Below are positions 7,486 through 29,244 of a stretch of 64,000 nucleotides of DNA, one piece after another. A model generated the notes under the pieces. The model was not told the DNA's origin, ran no database searches, and worked only from the letters and a program-made list of their open reading frames with translations. The position numbers and the translations under genes are program-made. The stretch lies in contig JAKYXN010000021.1 in NCBI GenBank assembly GCA_022538095.1, positions 1 through 64,000 of the forward strand, in the 5' to 3' direction. This DNA is from Puniceicoccaceae bacterium K14. Its GTDB lineage: Bacteria > Verrucomicrobiota > Verrucomicrobiia > Opitutales > Opitutaceae. Position 1 is the first letter of the stretch; every line of letters begins with the position of its first letter.

Positions 7486-7668
7486 ATGGTGAAGAGTGAA
7501 ATGAAGAAGACTAAGAAACAGCAATTGCGGGGAAAGGCTCATACGTTTAAATCGAAACTGGATAAGCGTTTGGAGGAAGAACGAATGGAGTTGGCTGGGC
7601 AACGGTTGAGAGCGATTGGCCTTGTGGTTCCACCAGCTCATAAGGACTTAACCCCTAAGTACAATTGA
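7486..7668 (+). CDS. Small basic phage protein
   Basis: 60 residues, Lys/Arg-rich (MKKTKKQQLRGKAHTFKSKL). The sequence around its start (GTGAATGGTGAAGAGTGAAA) is itself a simple GTGAA-type repeat, so the true start could be the ATG at 7501. It ends inside the methyltransferase start (TTGA overlap). Confidence 0.45.
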   Translation: MVKSEMKKTKKQQLRGKAHTFKSKLDKRLEEERMELAGQRLRAIGLVVPPAHKDLTPKYN

Positions 7669-9026
7669 ACTACTATAATGAATACGATCTTAAGGCGGTC
7701 GCTTGGTTGGAACAGTTGATTAAGCTTGGACTTATACCAAATGGAGACATTGACACACGAAGTATTGCCGAAGTGCGAGCAGATGACCTTGTTGGGTATC
7801 GGCAGTGCCACTTCTTTGCTGGAATTGGAGGATGGTCAGAGGCCCTTCGAATTGCCAATTGGCCAAGGGATGGGGAAGTATGGACGGGGTCTTGTCCGTG
7901 CCAGCCTTTCAGTGTGGCGGGAAAAGGAAAGGGAGAAGCGGACGAACGCCACCTCTGGCCGGTCTTTGCTCAGCTCATTGACAAGCGTAGACCTGCAACA
8001 GTCTTTGGAGAGCAAGTTGCGAGCAAGGCTGGGCGCGAATGGCTCGACCGAGTACGTCTTGACTTGGAAGCTATGGGATATGCCGTCGGGGCCGCCGATT
8101 TGTGCGCTGCGAGCGCGGGCGCCCCGCACATCCGACAACGTCTGTGGTGGGTGGCCCACTACACGGGCTCAAGAACCGGGCTCGACCAGTCCGGGCTACG
8201 GCAAGGGCCTGCAGGTAGTGGCGCGGTCAGCCAGTTGGGCAACCCCTTGTTCTGGAGACGGCAAAGGCATCTCGAAATTCAAGGGCAAGGCGACAGATCA
8301 AATTGTTGCCCTGCCCAATCAAGCAGCAACAGCCGGTTGGGGGACGCCAAGAGTGACGACCAATTGCGGGATTCCATCTCCCCAGAGCACGGGGAAGGGA
8401 TCAAGGCTAGAGGACCAAGCAGGGATAGCAGGGTATCCAACGCCGGTCGTATCGGACATCAACGGGGAGAGGAAGCCGAACGGGAAACGCGGTCTTTGCA
8501 TGAAGACGGTAGCGGGGTATGCGACCCCAACAGTAACGGACGCCAGGGGGAGCAGGAACCAAACGTGCAAACGATCGAATCCCAACAGCAAGCATCACGC
8601 GGGGCAGACTTTTACGGATCAGGCGAGCTTGACGGTGGGGCCCTGGGTAACGCCTCTGGCGAGCGATTCAAGGGGATCGGCCGGGAAGGGAAAAAAGGAG
8701 CTCCCGAACATAGTGAAGCTCTGCGAAAGTCTGGGCCCTGGGAACACTTCGACCTCATCCCCTGTAGCGACGGAAAAGCCAGACGTATTGAACGCGGGAC
8801 TGAGCCGTTGGTTAATGGGTTACCGCGTGGCGTGGTGCCTAGCGGGGATATTAGCTTGGAGAGCGACATCAAAAACAGTCCGGAGGGCCGCAACATGAGG
8901 CTTAAGGGATATGGGAATGCGATTGTTCCGCAAGTGGGGGCGGAGTTTGTTTCAGCGTATTTGGAGAGTGTTGGTTCGCCCACTAAGGACACAGAGGTTC
9001 ACGAAGATGGAGGTGATATTTTATGA
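7665..9026 (+). CDS. dcm: DNA C5-cytosine methyltransferase (phage Dcm)
   Basis: 453 residues from a TTG start coupled to the previous stop. Motif I FFAGIGGWSEAL (about 50-61), motif IV SCPCQPFSVAGKG with catalytic C79, motif VI GEQV (Q replaces the usual N), motif VIII HIRQRLWWVA, and motif X MRLKGYGNAIVPQVGAEF near the C-terminus. It would methylate cytosine in phage DNA, protecting it from host restriction. The middle (about 165-400), where target recognition lies, is low in hydrophobic residues and punctuated by LGNP, LGDA, VSNA, VCDP and LGNA phrases. This stretch overlaps a second long open frame (7741-8898). The tail SPTKDTEVHEDGG is repeat-derived. Confidence 0.85.
   Translation: MNYYNEYDLKAVAWLEQLIKLGLIPNGDIDTRSIAEVRADDLVGYRQCHFFAGIGGWSEALRIANWPRDGEVWTGSCPCQPFSVAGKGKGEADERHLWPVFAQLIDKRRPATVFGEQVASKAGREWLDRVRLDLEAMGYAVGAADLCAASAGAPHIRQRLWWVAHYTGSRTGLDQSGLRQGPAGSGAVSQLGNPLFWRRQRHLEIQGQGDRSNCCPAQSSSNSRLGDAKSDDQLRDSISPEHGEGIKARGPSRDSRVSNAGRIGHQRGEEAERETRSLHEDGSGVCDPNSNGRQGEQEPNVQTIESQQQASRGADFYGSGELDGGALGNASGERFKGIGREGKKGAPEHSEALRKSGPWEHFDLIPCSDGKARRIERGTEPLVNGLPRGVVPSGDISLESDIKNSPEGRNMRLKGYGNAIVPQVGAEFVSAYLESVGSPTKDTEVHEDGGDIL
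7741..8898 (+). CDS. Nested gene overlapping the methyltransferase (+1 frame), WxTP-repeat protein
   Basis: A 385-residue frame (ATG at 7741, in-frame TTG at 7726) lies wholly inside the methyltransferase gene. It contains SLESKLRARLGANGS, EYVLTWKLWDMPSGPPICAL, GGWPTT, then repeated phrases ATPCSGD, GTPRVTT, PTPVVSD, ATPTVTD, VTPLASD, and ends LNAGLSRWLMGYRVAWCLAG. These match, from memory, proteins found separately in many phages (WPTPxAxDxxxG repeats and LNPxFxxWLMGxP end), so this is probably a real dual-coded protein. Biochemical role unknown. Alternative: the peptide similarity reflects only the other frame's constraint. Confidence 0.6.
   Translation: METLTHEVLPKCEQMTLLGIGSATSLLELEDGQRPFELPIGQGMGKYGRGLVRASLSVWREKEREKRTNATSGRSLLSSLTSVDLQQSLESKLRARLGANGSTEYVLTWKLWDMPSGPPICALRARAPRTSDNVCGGWPTTRAQEPGSTSPGYGKGLQVVARSASWATPCSGDGKGISKFKGKATDQIVALPNQAATAGWGTPRVTTNCGIPSPQSTGKGSRLEDQAGIAGYPTPVVSDINGERKPNGKRGLCMKTVAGYATPTVTDARGSRNQTCKRSNPNSKHHAGQTFTDQASLTVGPWVTPLASDSRGSAGKGKKELPNIVKLCESLGPGNTSTSSPVATEKPDVLNAGLSRWLMGYRVAWCLAGILAWRATSKTVRRAAT
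8978..9006 (+). repeat. Dispersed repeat family A, copy encoding a methyltransferase tail
   Basis: GCCCACTAAGGACACAGAGG followed by TTCACGAAG, read in frame as SPTKDTEVHED at the C-terminus of the methyltransferase. Confidence 0.75.
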
Positions 9027-9286
9027 AACTGATAATTGAGAGTAATCGTGTAGAATTGGTTAATGAGCTTGGTGTTGTTTTGGATGATTCAATTGAGACT
9101 AGCCGAACCTGCTATCTTGAAATTGAGGATACGCATGACATGCCTGCGATCGATCGGTTTGGCCTGATGATAAAGTCGGCTCTTTTAGATGCCCGATGTA
9201 ATCCGCCTAGTAAGATTCGAATAAATCTGGGAAGCGGACTAAACATTGAGACAAAGGAAAACACTACACAGGAGGTTGTATTTTAA
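9023..9286 (+). CDS. Small phage protein, unknown
   Basis: 87 residues, overlapping the methyltransferase stop by 4 nt and ending immediately before the initiator's ATG. Mixed alpha/beta sequence (KLIIESNRVELVNELG). No family recognised. Confidence 0.55.
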   Translation: MKLIIESNRVELVNELGVVLDDSIETSRTCYLEIEDTHDMPAIDRFGLMIKSALLDARCNPPSKIRINLGSGLNIETKENTTQEVVF

Positions 9287-26172: not shown

Positions 26173-29100
26173 ATGGCTGATAAGAAGGAGATAGTCGATA
26201 TCCTGCTGAAGATCCGAGAGGATCAGGCGGAGCGTAAGCGTTTGTTGAATGGTTTCATCGAAATGCAGACGCAGGTGAACAAGCTGCAGGGCTCGCTGGA
26301 GAAGACGCTGAATAACCAATATGGGGGCGGTCTGGTAAAGGGTTTGTTGACGGCTACGGGTATTACTGTGGGACTGAATGAGGCGTTCCAGGCGACGAAG
26401 CGTTTTGTAGAGCGTGGTATCGATTTCTCGGCTACTATTGAGCAAAACCAGGTAGCGTTTGAAACGTTGCTAGGTGGAGCGGATGAAGCGCAAACGCGGG
26501 TTGCGGAGTTGGTAGACTTTGCGGCGGTGACGCCGTTCCGTTTTGCGGGTGTAGTGGATGCAAACCGACAGTTGCAAGTTTTGACGGATGGGGCTTTGGC
26601 AACGACGGATGGCTTGCGTATTGTGGGTGATGCAGCGGCGGCTACGGGGCGCGACTTTAGCCAAGTGGCGTTTTGGGTGGGTCGTGTGTATGCGGGTCTT
26701 AAGAGTGGCGAACCGATTGGTGAGGCGACGCTTCGCTTGATTGAGATGGGTCTAATATCGGGCGAGACATCGCGCGAGTTGCAACGACTGGCGACGAGCT
26801 CGCACTCTGCGGATGATGCGTTCCAGATAATCGAGCGTACCTTTGAAAATACGTCTGGTGCGATGGAGAAGCAGAGTCGTACGTTTAAGGGCTTGAGCGC
26901 TACGGTAGCGGACACGCTTGATGTGATGGCGAGCGATTTGACGCGACCGATATTTGACCACCTCAAGAACACAATGGAGGAAGTGCTTGAGCTGATTGGG
27001 GCGTTGCCTTCTGAGGTAGAGGTAGCTCGCAAGAAGTTGCGTTCTATTGGTGGTGACGTAGTGAGCTCGATCGATAACCTTACGAATGCAGAGGATCTGC
27101 CAAAGACACTGGAAGAGGTGAGCCGGCAGATGGATATTGCTCGCAAGAAGGCGAACTCGTTGGAGTTGGCTTTGAGAAGTTCTTTGGAGGTGAAGGGGTT
27201 CCAGCCTACTGGCAATGAGCAGACATCGCTAGCCGGCGATATCGCTCGTGGAGCGGGTAATGCTGCTATAGCGACGGGCGATGCGCTTAAGAGTTTGGTG
27301 GGTGTAGACAGTAGTCCGTACTCTGATGAATCTATAGAGCGAACGCGTGAGATAACGAAGAATTTGCGGGCGGTTAAAAGCGCCTTGGCTGAGTTGGAAT
27401 TTCGTGAGGAGCAGTTGCAGGGGCTGCTTGGTCCTAGAACTCAGGAGAGAATCGATGCGTTGGAGGAGCGTATTCAACGGTTGAATGAGACGGGTCAACG
27501 TAGGCTGAGTATTGGCAGCAAGGCGGAACTGGTACGGGCGGATGCGACTACTGGTCTTTTGAAAACGGAAGAGAATCGATTGAGAGTGGCTGAAGAGCAG
27601 CTCCGAATCGTCCGGGAAGGGATTACGACCAAGATTGAAGAAAACGCGTTGGCTAAAGAGGAGGAAACGCGCCTGAATACGGCGAAGACGCGTAATAGTG
27701 AACTGCTTGAGGGGTCTCAAAAGATAATCGAAGCGGCGGTAAAGGCTGCGGATGCGTATGAATTGCAGAATGGCTCCTTGGAAGAGCAGCAGGGTCGATT
27801 GCAGGAGCGTTTGACTTTGCTTGGGCTTGAGCAGGAAACCGAGCTTGAGAATTTGAAGCTTTTGGGTGAGCAGGCTGCTATCGATGAATCGAATGCTGAA
27901 TTCACGGTAAAGCGTCTTGATTTGGTGAAGCAAATTGAAGCGGTAGCTGGACGTATCCAGCGACGTGATTCGCAGGCGGCGGATAAAGCGAAGAGCGACT
28001 CCGAAAAAATCGCAAGGGAAGAGAAGAGGCTTGAACGTGAACGGCTGCGGGCGCAGAGGGAGAATTTTGATACACAAGAGTTGAGCTTGCGATTGGTGAT
28101 CGACCGTATCCAGCACGAGAGGCAATTGCTGGAGTTGAATGGTGTGACTGCGGATGAGCGTAGGAAGCAAGGAGAGTTGCTTGAAGCGGAACAATTGGCC
28201 CTAGCGAAGATAATTGCTTTAAAGAGGGAGGAGCTTTCTTTGGCATCGACTCCGCGCGAGAAGGTAACGATCGAGACGGAAATCCAAAACCTGGAACAGG
28301 AGAGTGTGATAAATGAGCGTAGCAATGAAGTGACTACGCGGGCGCAGGAAAGTCAGGAGGCGTTTGATACGCGGGGTGACCCGGATGTGAGTTTTCAGAA
28401 TTTGGGCGAGGCGCGGTTGGCGGCTTTGCAAGACTATGTGACGCAGGCGGGGACGTTGAATGATAATTTTTACCAGTCGCTTCTGGAGATAAATAACACT
28501 CTGGAAAGCAGTATTGCGGAATCGATCGAGGGGTTGATCTTGGGTACGGAGTCTTGGGGGGAGGCGTTGCAGAATATCGCTGCGACTTTTGGGACGAGTA
28601 TTGTACAGAGTATTGCTCAAATGGCGGCGAAGTGGATAACCTCGCGCATTGCGATGGCGGCGGTGGATAACACGCTGCGAGCGCAATCTACGGCTGCAAG
28701 CGCAGCGGAAGCGGGGACATTAACGGCTACTTGGGCGGCTCCGGCGGCTCTAGCTTCTGTAGGATCTTATGGGTCTGCGTTGGCGTTTATCCCATTGATG
28801 TTGGCTGCTGTTGCGGGTGCTGTTGCTGCGTTTGAGACGGGTGGTGGAATCGATGGGGGCGAGCAATTGATTCGGGTGAACGAGAAGGGGCGTGAGTTTG
28901 TGATAAACAACCCGACTTTAATCCGGTTTGGCGAGCAGGTGTTCAAAGATATGCAGAGTGGTAAGATAACGCCGCAAAACTTGGCGGAAGCGGGTGTTTC
29001 TAGCGGGGGGACGAGCTTTGCTAGTAGTTCGCCTAGGCTTTCTCAGAGCTCGGCAGAGGGCTCGAGTGCCAATAATGGTACCGGGGCGAATGAGGCGGCT

Positions 29101-29244
29101 CAGTCTGAAGGAGTTGCTGCCAATGTAAACGTTGGCGTTTTCGGTACAAAGGAAGAAACGATGAATTGGCTAAAGGGACAGGAAGGCGAGAAGGTAATTG
29201 TGGATACGTTTAATCGTAACTCGGAGGTACTAAGCAAAGAATAG
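26173..29244 (+). CDS. Tape measure protein
   Basis: 1023 residues, the second largest gene in the prophage. The N-terminal domain (about 70-270) carries the tape measure signature: ATIEQNQVAFETLLGGADEA, FAAVTPFRFAGVVDANRQLQ and SGLMSG-like GEATLRLIEMGLISG. Long coiled coils (about 380-720) follow, with hydrophobic helices at 870-920 (AAPAALASVGSYGSALAFIP) that probably insert in the host membrane. It sets tail length; by common scaling a long, flexible tail is expected. The many Arg/Glu/Leu-rich heptads explain the long open frames on the opposite strand. Confidence 0.88.
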   Translation: MADKKEIVDILLKIREDQAERKRLLNGFIEMQTQVNKLQGSLEKTLNNQYGGGLVKGLLTATGITVGLNEAFQATKRFVERGIDFSATIEQNQVAFETLLGGADEAQTRVAELVDFAAVTPFRFAGVVDANRQLQVLTDGALATTDGLRIVGDAAAATGRDFSQVAFWVGRVYAGLKSGEPIGEATLRLIEMGLISGETSRELQRLATSSHSADDAFQIIERTFENTSGAMEKQSRTFKGLSATVADTLDVMASDLTRPIFDHLKNTMEEVLELIGALPSEVEVARKKLRSIGGDVVSSIDNLTNAEDLPKTLEEVSRQMDIARKKANSLELALRSSLEVKGFQPTGNEQTSLAGDIARGAGNAAIATGDALKSLVGVDSSPYSDESIERTREITKNLRAVKSALAELEFREEQLQGLLGPRTQERIDALEERIQRLNETGQRRLSIGSKAELVRADATTGLLKTEENRLRVAEEQLRIVREGITTKIEENALAKEEETRLNTAKTRNSELLEGSQKIIEAAVKAADAYELQNGSLEEQQGRLQERLTLLGLEQETELENLKLLGEQAAIDESNAEFTVKRLDLVKQIEAVAGRIQRRDSQAADKAKSDSEKIAREEKRLERERLRAQRENFDTQELSLRLVIDRIQHERQLLELNGVTADERRKQGELLEAEQLALAKIIALKREELSLASTPREKVTIETEIQNLEQESVINERSNEVTTRAQESQEAFDTRGDPDVSFQNLGEARLAALQDYVTQAGTLNDNFYQSLLEINNTLESSIAESIEGLILGTESWGEALQNIAATFGTSIVQSIAQMAAKWITSRIAMAAVDNTLRAQSTAASAAEAGTLTATWAAPAALASVGSYGSALAFIPLMLAAVAGAVAAFETGGGIDGGEQLIRVNEKGREFVINNPTLIRFGEQVFKDMQSGKITPQNLAEAGVSSGGTSFASSSPRLSQSSAEGSSANNGTGANEAAQSEGVAANVNVGVFGTKEETMNWLKGQEGEKVIVDTFNRNSEVLSKE

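Follow-up and report, generated by a model that had tools for sequence, protein, structure and literature searches.

A prophage locus in the window (the whole stretch of 64,000 nt analysed here, from contig JAKYXN010000021.1 of Puniceicoccaceae bacterium K14) is, judged by sequence conservation, dual-coding: two conserved genes, A and B, are read from one strand in different frames. With a probability of roughly 0.8, the locus encodes both halves of a single cytosine-5 DNA methyltransferase, A being the catalytic half and B the half carrying motif IX. This reading follows from the conservation of both frames, the lack of motif IX in A, the motif IX-like segment in B, the finding that motif IX never occurred in both frames of a surveyed locus, and the precedent of M.EcoHK31I.

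Overlapping reading frames

Frames A (7665-9026) and B (7726-8898, +1 relative to A) were both open on the same strand, with B wholly inside A. A encodes 453 aa from a TTG start; counted from the ATG at 7741, its first, B is 385 codons long and 1,158 nt are common to both, in agreement with the initial annotation, which had described two long open frames sharing about 1,160 nt. The PCQ and GYGNAIVPQ it had reported in A and the PPICAL and WLMGY it had reported in B were all located in those frames, as were the six W/Y-x-T phrases of B, with D at the eighth residue in four. The features of the locus are as follows.

7486-7668, + strand: 60-aa upstream ORF, the stop of which overlaps the start of A (TTGA)
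7665-9026, + strand: frame A, predicted C5-methyltransferase catalytic subunit (PF00145, phrog_363, motifs I, IV, VI, VIII, X)
7665-7784, + strand: N-terminal segment of A, motif II-III-like, ahead of motif I (VIA-align, spacing)
7741-8898, + strand: frame B, nested +1 gene of up to 385 codons (phrog_1008, absence of stops, synonymous constraint)
7815-7832, + strand: motif I of A (FAGIGG)
7896-7904, + strand: motif IV of A (PCQ, with the catalytic Cys)
7974-8145, + strand: N-terminal conserved block of B, over motifs VI-VIII of A (jump in third-base identity at nt 7974)
8007-8018, + strand: motif VI of A (GEQV, Gln replacing the usual Asn; alignment of 16 sequences)
8127-8141, + strand: motif VIII of A (HIRQR)
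8152-8667, + strand: six W/Y-x-T-x phrases of B (W at 8152, 8236 and 8338; Y at 8434 and 8518; W at 8644)
8166-8729, + strand: linker of A, residues 168-355, encoding the repeats of B in +1 (poorly conserved, mostly low-confidence in AF2)
8788-8835, + strand: motif IX-like segment of B (LNAGLSRWLMGYRVAW; hhalign to canonical motif IX)
8913-8933, + strand: motif X of A (GNAIVPQ), immediately past the end of B (AF2 helix 422-435)
9023-9286, + strand: 87-aa downstream ORF, the start of which overlaps the stop of A (ATGA)

The longest stop-free +1 run within A, 392 codons, was matched by none of 5,000 synonymous shuffles of A (maximum 383) and none of 5,000 codon permutations (maximum 382). The +2 frame was ordinary, its longest run of 64 codons being reached by 2,402 of 5,000 synonymous shuffles.

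Conservation of both frames

Expected numbers of +1 stops were taken from synonymous shuffles preserving the protein and codon usage of A. Among 193 relatives, no +1 stop was observed over nt 7974-8159 (272 expected) and a single one over nt 8160-8738 (211 expected); the pattern that had been named beforehand as speaking against dual coding, B routinely broken with A intact, was not found. Stops in +2 were not depleted over the same intervals (364 vs 379 expected, and 998 vs 1,037). Third-base identity in the synonymous codons of A was mostly near expectation at the N-terminus of A and reached 0.9-0.99, as against about 0.26-0.29, in many columns under B; strong synonymous constraint on A set in at nt 7974 and covered most of B. 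The absence of stops and this constraint bear out the dual coding proposed in the initial annotation. The Gly codon of A under the WLMG of B was GGG in 46 of the 47 Gly-bearing relatives found through A and in 186/187 overall, as against 524 GGG among the 2,429 Gly codons of those A-found genes; this test is non-circular, the site having been picked from the alignment of A.

Openness of the +1 frame could also be a by-product of the conserved residues of A and of codon bias. Such an origin would accord with the little constraint on the N-terminus of B before about nt 7974 and with the weaker stop depletion there (82 observed vs 136 expected over nt 7740-7838; 7 vs 64 over nt 7839-7973). Its probability is negligible, as shuffles that preserve both the protein and the codon usage of A still predict hundreds of stops and fail to reach the open run of the window, and the 51 representatives found through A, taken alone, hold no +1 stop over nt 7974-8825. 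For about that interval, a chance open frame is refuted by the shuffles, the constraint and the A-found representatives.

The two frames were found together in both directions of search. B was carried by 80/80 loci found through A (best 80 of 564 matches), and an overlapping A was present in 160/160 loci found through B (best 80 of 490 viral and best 80 of 204 genome matches); a single A ORF spanned the best B match in 157 of these and was interrupted by one stop in the other three. Loci with A interrupted by one stop were L073, L091, L224 and L167; A in L172 was split in the same way as in L167, and L219 was frame-shifted, with neither A nor B whole. The loci L001-L257 comprised 234 distinct A ORFs, the sets overlapping. 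Matches to B occurred in many phages and in genome contigs titled Proteobacteria, Verrucomicrobia, Planctomycetota and Leptospiraceae. Searches of plasmids for B beside a restriction gene returned 7 and 12 records, and the two regions examined held no annotated restriction gene.

The W-x-TP and WLMGxP phrases had been said to occur in stand-alone phage proteins; no such protein was found, A overlapping B throughout the best 160 B-found loci. Often only one of the two frames is annotated in phages and bacterial genomes, and the nested frame was annotated alone in 6/26 phage records examined, so that seemingly stand-alone proteins can arise in this way. The view that the frames evolve as a locked pair was overstated. 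Under the W-x-T-P phrases the residue of A was Asp in 271/521 cases (52%), which tracks the use of CCG for 2,837 of 5,134 Pro codons of B (55%); B is therefore the constrained frame there and A largely follows.

A phage methylase gene has been described that contains a protein in another frame, the HNH endonuclease of the ShiLan domain (PMC11855218), and B might be a homing element of that kind. This is barely credible here: B overlaps the catalytic core (motifs VI-VIII), is present in every scored locus of the A subfamily among the matches listed, and matches no HNH family. Among the loci examined, no related methyltransferase was without B in the way that a clean insertion would leave it, and B, lying over catalytic motifs, does not fit a clean insertion.

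Frame A

A matched PF00145 (4.3e-14, 53.1 bits; cut-off 22) and phrog_363 (2.5e-69). It has motifs I, IV, VI, VIII and X of the PF00145 family and lacks motif IX in the same chain; motif IX was not found in A, whose profile aligned to canonical enzymes over I-VIII only. Since motif IX lies in +1 and not in A, A is filed as a predicted catalytic subunit and not as a complete enzyme. The motif VI residues G115, E116, Q117 and V118 were invariant in the 16 aligned sequences. The AF2 model was confident over most of residues 1-167 and 420-435 and not over most of 168-355; it consists of the large domain and the motif X helix, with no confidently predicted small domain, and its best fold match was M.HhaI (Z 17.1).

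A appears to be circularly permuted, as structure and spacing suggest. Residue 1 of the model pairs with residue 35 of M.HhaI (VIA-align), and motifs I and IV are 26 aa apart in A vs 63 aa in enzymes of canonical order. Pairwise scores for the permutation were modestly above shuffled ones (mean 22.6 vs 19.3); hhalign of the N-terminal II-III-like segment gave no significant match, the score lying below shuffled controls.

Frame B

B matched phrog_1008 (1.3e-27), as did 7/7 other nested proteins tried. It matched no Pfam family above cut-off, no NCBIfam family and no solved fold, and searching PDB sequences with B, or with the tail of B, gave nothing credible; a weak Pfam match to DUF3515, below cut-off, was disregarded. 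Candidate starts are ATG 7741, TTG 7726 (the frame opening) and ATG 7783, and no single start codon was clear across the 193 relatives. The N-terminal conserved block is predicted to form a helix followed by a beta hairpin around LTWK..SG..CALRA; AF2 of B alone was mostly low-confidence (mean pLDDT 55.7), with confident prediction at helix 81-100 and strands 106-114 and 117-126. VIA-align of this model gave a best Z of 3.3, and the small domain of M.HhaI was absent among the matches listed, a result that excludes nothing. The W/Y-x-T-x phrases number 0-6 per protein in the 193 relatives.

Location of motif IX

The end of B (LNPxxxxWLMGYPxxW) has the spacing of C5-methyltransferase motif IX (LTPRECARLMGFPDxF). 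When the B profile was compared by hhalign with seven canonical C5-methyltransferases, chosen for having motif IX in frame, it aligned at motif IX only; the alignment was short, with probabilities of 11.4% and 1.7% (E 0.0026 and 0.029), and the segment was undetected by Pfam and by profile search of PDB sequences.

The position of motif IX was surveyed in 160 further viral loci (157 distinct cores), found by catalytic motifs only (best 80 of 593, twice). With a strict pattern, motif IX lay in the nested +1 frame in 99 loci, in the frame of A in 22 and in a +1 gene past the end of A in 5, and 34/160 were missed; it was found neither in both A and the nested frame nor in +2 inside A in any of the 160. 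A looser pattern, devised after inspection of the 34 missed loci, placed motif IX in +1 in 22 of them and in the frame of A in 7, never in both, with 5 unplaced. One of the 99 nested hits (L394) looks false, as probably does a second hit in L467, downstream of A in +2. In a control of canonical genes (best 30 of 56 PF00145 matches, window excluded), a sample that favours complete one-chain enzymes, no match to B occurred at E < 0.01; 21 were left unclassified by the motif IX pattern, and motif IX was in frame in 7/9 of those classified. Motif IX is placed on the smaller polypeptide by weak profile statistics plus the exclusion between frames in the 160 loci. The initial annotation did not raise the point that B looks to be the portion missing from the enzyme encoded by A.

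In all 22 loci with motif IX in the frame of A, motif VI is still covered by nested +1 ORFs, each 100 aa or longer (22/22); these ORFs lack motif IX and show the same constraint, so B would do more than supply motif IX. B might instead be a real nested protein, overprinted on A, that serves a separate purpose (as a regulator or counter-defence protein, say) and resembles motif IX by coincidence. The retention of its N-terminal block and repeats where motif IX is in A, the short profile evidence, and the lack of an explanation from Pfam above cut-off, NCBIfam or a solved fold would all suit such a protein. It is considered unlikely: motif IX falls in one frame or the other and never both in the survey, the +1 gene of Gordonia phage Upyo holds motifs IX and X, both absent from its A, and B never occurs without an overlapping A in the best 160 B-found loci.

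Programmed frameshifting, with ribosomes leaving A for B past motif VIII and returning ahead of X, would yield one canonical chain (I-VIII, IX, X). The order of VIII, IX and X in the DNA is indeed canonical across the two frames, and the frame in which motif IX is read, that of A or +1, varies among relatives. Against this, the constraint on B begins over VI-VIII (nt 7974), where a shift past VIII does not call for it, and each of the 193 B ORFs contains an ATG, within 236 nt of the start of A in 95%; this reading is accordingly held to be highly improbable.

Proposed model

In the preferred reading, that of one methyltransferase split between A and B, A would be the large catalytic domain, with the AdoMet site, the Pro-Cys loop and motifs VI, VIII and X, and would have a flexible linker in place of the small domain of ordinary enzymes. 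B would be a second polypeptide, initiated within A at a start of its own in the +1 frame; it would carry motif IX and most likely, in its W/Y-x-T-P units, the part that recognizes the target, and the two would associate into an active enzyme methylating phage DNA, lysogen DNA or both. We infer the expression of B, its binding to A, the action of motif IX in trans and the setting of specificity by B.

A broader proposal is offered tentatively and is somewhat doubtful as a whole: the W-x-T-P units (0-6 per protein) might be interchangeable target-recognition modules, nested coding might be the normal state in a large phage branch, and the branch of the window might be permuted (II-III, I, IV, VI, VIII, X). 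Phages would then change methylation specificity by gain and loss of units in one frame, the frame of A staying a tolerant linker.

No report of the nested arrangement in phages was found in the literature searched, of which coverage was incomplete. Its breadth in phages, the W-x-T-P repeats of B and the apparently permuted catalytic subunit are apparently new, and we judge dual-coding DNA of up to 1.2 kb to be unusual among overlaps in both its length and its spread. Should B be a subunit, annotation has so far captured one half of such phage methyltransferases, and specificity predictions from A alone would fail. One-chain, overlapping-split and fully nested forms make a natural series for testing, in laboratory phages such as N15, how dual coding and split enzymes evolve.

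Comparison with known systems

M.EcoHK31I is a two-polypeptide C5-methyltransferase recognizing YGGCCR. Its small polypeptide was reportedly described in 1995 as encoded in another frame inside the gene of the large one, as B is inside A, and is said to be 176 aa long, vs 385 aa for B. Motif IX alone is on the smaller polypeptide and I-VIII plus X are on the larger (PMC3404938); A likewise has I, IV, VI, VIII and X without IX, the content of such a large chain, with II-III present only as a displaced segment. The comparison is one of published descriptions. The predicted recognition domain of M.EcoHK31I is placed in its larger subunit, whereas B is proposed here, a difference that counts against our reading. 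The distance between motifs VIII and X in A ranges from 66 to 537 aa in 184 relatives, and its median of 174 aa, compared with 141-146 aa in six canonical enzymes, leaves room by length for a recognition domain in A; the span is mostly low-confidence in AF2 and appears as a variable linker, with the W-x-T-P repeats in B.

M.AquI is split within the variable region and its second subunit carries motif IX (PMC3404938). A similar layout is seen in gp54/gp53 of Gordonia phage Upyo. The present locus differs in that B is nested and X stays on A, the small subunit being the one that has X in M.AquI. The ShiLan domain HNH likewise occupies a second frame of a phage methylase gene but is an actively homing insertion of disjunct distribution and not part of the enzyme (PMC11855218).

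With M.HhaI and other one-chain PF00145 enzymes, A shares the large-domain fold and motifs I, IV, VI, VIII and X; it differs in having no motif IX or confident small domain, in the EQV of motif VI and in the II-III-like segment before motif I. Both phrog_1008 and phrog_31772 ('DNA methyltransferase') match the nested frame and are named methyltransferases, yet no catalytic motif was seen in that frame. In the methyltransferases of Mycobacterium phage Yorick and Gordonia phage Neville, the catalytic chain itself has a motif IX like that of B (WMMGxPxGW), between VIII and X, and the nested ORFs (178 and 193 aa) differ from B in lacking it; the B-like N-terminal block is still present in +1 in both.

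Locus and surroundings

The catalytic frame (A) and the frame nested in it (B) overlap over 1,158 nt of the forward strand, with the following limits.

7665-9026, forward strand: frame A, open reading frame
7726-8898 (open), first ATG at 7741, forward strand: frame B, in the +1 frame, wholly within A

A is joined to both adjoining ORFs by 4-nt stop/start overlaps (TTGA, ATGA). Phage families were matched by 9 of 10 neighbouring ORFs scanned, including replication initiation, DnaC-like loader, portal, head protease, major head, tape measure and tail proteins, and the assembly containing the window is 5.7 Mb in size; on these grounds the locus is taken for part of a prophage. Antisense to the tape measure gene (window 26173-29244), several long ORFs of up to 330 aa were observed, which are probably composition effects.

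A matched PF00145 (53.1 bits, cut-off 22) and phrog_363 (2.5e-69). B matched phrog_1008 (1.3e-27), which with PHROG 31772 is a library family made of the nested frame; an NCBIfam scan of B matched no family and a Pfam scan none above cut-off. In the AF2 model of A, the large domain and the helix of motif X are confident, the linker between them is mostly of low confidence, and the best structural likeness is to M.HhaI (Z 17.1). When B was modeled alone, confidence was limited to the C-terminal helices and to one helix and a hairpin lying over motifs VI-VIII of A, and a fold search with this model returned no convincing match.

Conservation of the nested frame

The +1 frame of the window's gene is open for 392 codons, a run reached by none of 5,000 synonymous shuffles and none of 5,000 codon permutations; its +2 frame was ordinary by the same shuffling test. 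Relatives were retrieved as 80 viral loci via B, 80 viral loci via A and 80 genome loci via B, each the best 80 of more; loci L001-L257 comprise 234 distinct A ORFs. Profiles of A and B both matched in all 260 stretches scored, and the best B match was +1 relative to that of A in 259, the exception (L153) having two gene copies with B in +1 in each. The copies of this duplicated A/B pair lie ~2.1 kb apart on one strand. Among the A-found loci (best 80 of more), a +1 B ORF was present in 80 of 80, overlapping A by 494-1,389 nt (median 981). A single A ORF spanned the best B match in 157 of 160 B-found loci (best 80 of more, twice), L219 among them being frame-shifted with neither frame whole, and A carried one stop in the other three; a stop likewise interrupts A in two A-found loci, L167 and L172. 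The A genes of L004 (1393-2982) and L014 (2284-3912) contain a lengthy additional stretch past the point where B ends and ahead of motif X. B nonetheless terminates after motif IX as it does elsewhere, which indicates that its end is set by B and not by A.

Stops and third-base identity were analyzed in 193 representatives of 240 loci with complete A, with expectations from synonymous shuffling within each gene and codons numbered from nt 7659 (codon 106 = nt 7974). Over codons 106-167, 168-360 and 361-389, the +1 stops seen numbered 0, 1 and 3 against 272, 211 and 69 expected, and none occurred across codons 106-389 in the 51 A-found representatives taken alone. The +2 frame was not depleted over the same three intervals (364/379, 998/1,037 and 391/229 seen/expected) and was somewhat depleted at the two ends of the gene (168/262 and 138/184). 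Third-base identity at synonymous codons rose sharply at nt 7974, reaching at least 0.9 against 0.26-0.29 at many columns, was still raised around motif X and came near expectation only past ~nt 8943. Upstream of nt 7974 it was near expectation in most columns and moderately raised in some, as expected from relatedness of the sequences. The Gly of A lying under WLMG of B, a site picked by the alignment of A, was encoded by GGG in 186 of 187 Gly-bearing sequences (A-found set, 46 of 47), whereas GGG made up 524 of the 2,429 Gly codons of these genes. These sequence comparisons give firm support to B being a conserved gene.

Upstream, +1 stops were partly depleted (codons 61-105, 7 seen against 64 expected; codons 28-60, 82 against 136) and +1 ATGs were common around codons 28-45 (52% at codon 38). 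Together these fit a start of B around codons 28-45, the data leaving the exact codon unfixed.

Often one frame alone is annotated: 26 phage records listed A in 15, both frames in 4, A plus a piece in the third frame in 1, and only B in 6 (L014, L015, L017, L267, L271 and L274), where the catalytic frame is unannotated and three are named methyltransferase.

Position of motif IX

Conservation in B is highest at its C-terminal end, LNPxxxxWLMGYPxxW. At motif IX, canonical C5-methyltransferases of related bacterial genomes have sequences such as LTPRECARLMGFPDTF, with identical spacing and L, P, L, M, G and P in common. By hhalign, the B profile had a single local match to an alignment of seven canonical enzymes, exactly at motif IX (E 0.0026, probability 11.4% with the tail; E 0.029, probability 1.7% with all of B), these weak statistics reflecting the shortness of the match. 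The A profile aligned with the same seven enzymes over motifs I-VIII only.

A further 160 viral loci (157 distinct cores) were retrieved by catalytic motifs only. The motif IX pattern was found in a nested +1 ORF in 99, one of which (L394) looks spurious, in A's own frame in 22, and in a +1 gene extending beyond the end of A in 5, A then being without motif X; it was missed in 34. In none of the 160 did it occur both in A's frame and nested, or in the +2 frame inside A; an extra downstream match in L467, one of the 99, is probably false. A looser pattern, devised after inspection of the 34 missed loci, assigned 22 of them to +1, 7 to A's frame and 0 to both, and did not find the motif in 5. 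Read by eye, motif IX was in a +1 ORF in 23 of 26 named phage records, including Salmonella phage epsilon15, Escherichia phages N15 and K1ind2, Synechococcus phage S-H1, Paenibacillus phage Bert, Lactobacillus phage Lc-Nu, Rhodobacter phage RcWata and, as overlapping splits, Gordonia phages Upyo and Camerico; it was in A's frame in Mycobacterium phage Yorick and Gordonia phage Neville, and in the remaining frame in Gordonia phage Getalong. Thirty other PF00145 loci, taken from the window's own genome and from its relatives, gave no B match at E < 0.01; these were the best 30 of 56 matches listed, a choice that favours one-chain enzymes.

Taken at the level of sequence, A and B are strongly supported as two subunits of one methyltransferase (probability roughly 0.8).

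B beyond motif IX

Where motif IX is in A's frame, 22 of 22 loci retained over motif VI a nested +1 ORF 100 aa or more in length, which had the N-terminal block of B and LPTP repeats and lacked motif IX. Between motifs VI and VIII of this group, 0 +1 stops were seen against 56 expected, and third-base identity was 0.530 against 0.354, the same constraint as in nested loci. A nested ORF so constrained without motif IX argues that B is not merely a motif IX carrier. SWKT...SG...LPTP-like repeats were observed in most nested +1 ORFs of in-frame loci (22 among L310-L370 and L450; L264, L276). Motif IX may have changed frames through indels. In L331 and L264, LPTP-type repeats lie downstream in A's frame and the N-terminal block of B in +1, as though the array of repeats ran from one frame into the other.

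The shortest spans of A between motifs VIII and X were 57 aa among nested loci (median 113, n=97) and 66 aa in the window's subfamily (median 174, n=184); the in-frame group ranged over 75-234 aa (median 121.5, n=22) and six canonical enzymes over 141-146 aa. At their shortest, A chains seem to lack room for a recognition domain, from which we infer that B carries it; longer chains do not decide. Conjecturally, the repeats of B would be modular specificity units.

Motif order in A

A segment resembling motifs II-III (YYNExD...GDVDERSI) precedes motif I in the subfamily (window 7665-7835, the N-terminus of A), motifs I and IV are separated by 26 aa (median of 68), compared with 63 aa in enzymes of canonical order (median of 14), and residue 1 of A paired structurally with M.HhaI residue 35. 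These features suggest that the catalytic domain is circularly permuted; for the short segment itself, hhalign was not significant and pairwise scores were only modestly above shuffled ones. Motif VI (window 8007-8018 and relatives) reads EQV, not the usual ENV, its Gln being invariant in 16 aligned subfamily sequences.

Comparison with M.EcoHK31I

A passage in PMC3404938 places motifs I-VIII and X and the predicted recognition domain of M.EcoHK31I on its larger subunit, and motif IX only on the smaller polypeptide. The window locus is not filed as an M.EcoHK31I system, both because it was compared by description and not by sequence and because its recognition domain is seemingly located elsewhere than the one predicted for that enzyme. 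The small polypeptide of M.EcoHK31I is reportedly coded in another frame within the gene of the large one, and the window locus would work like that enzyme.
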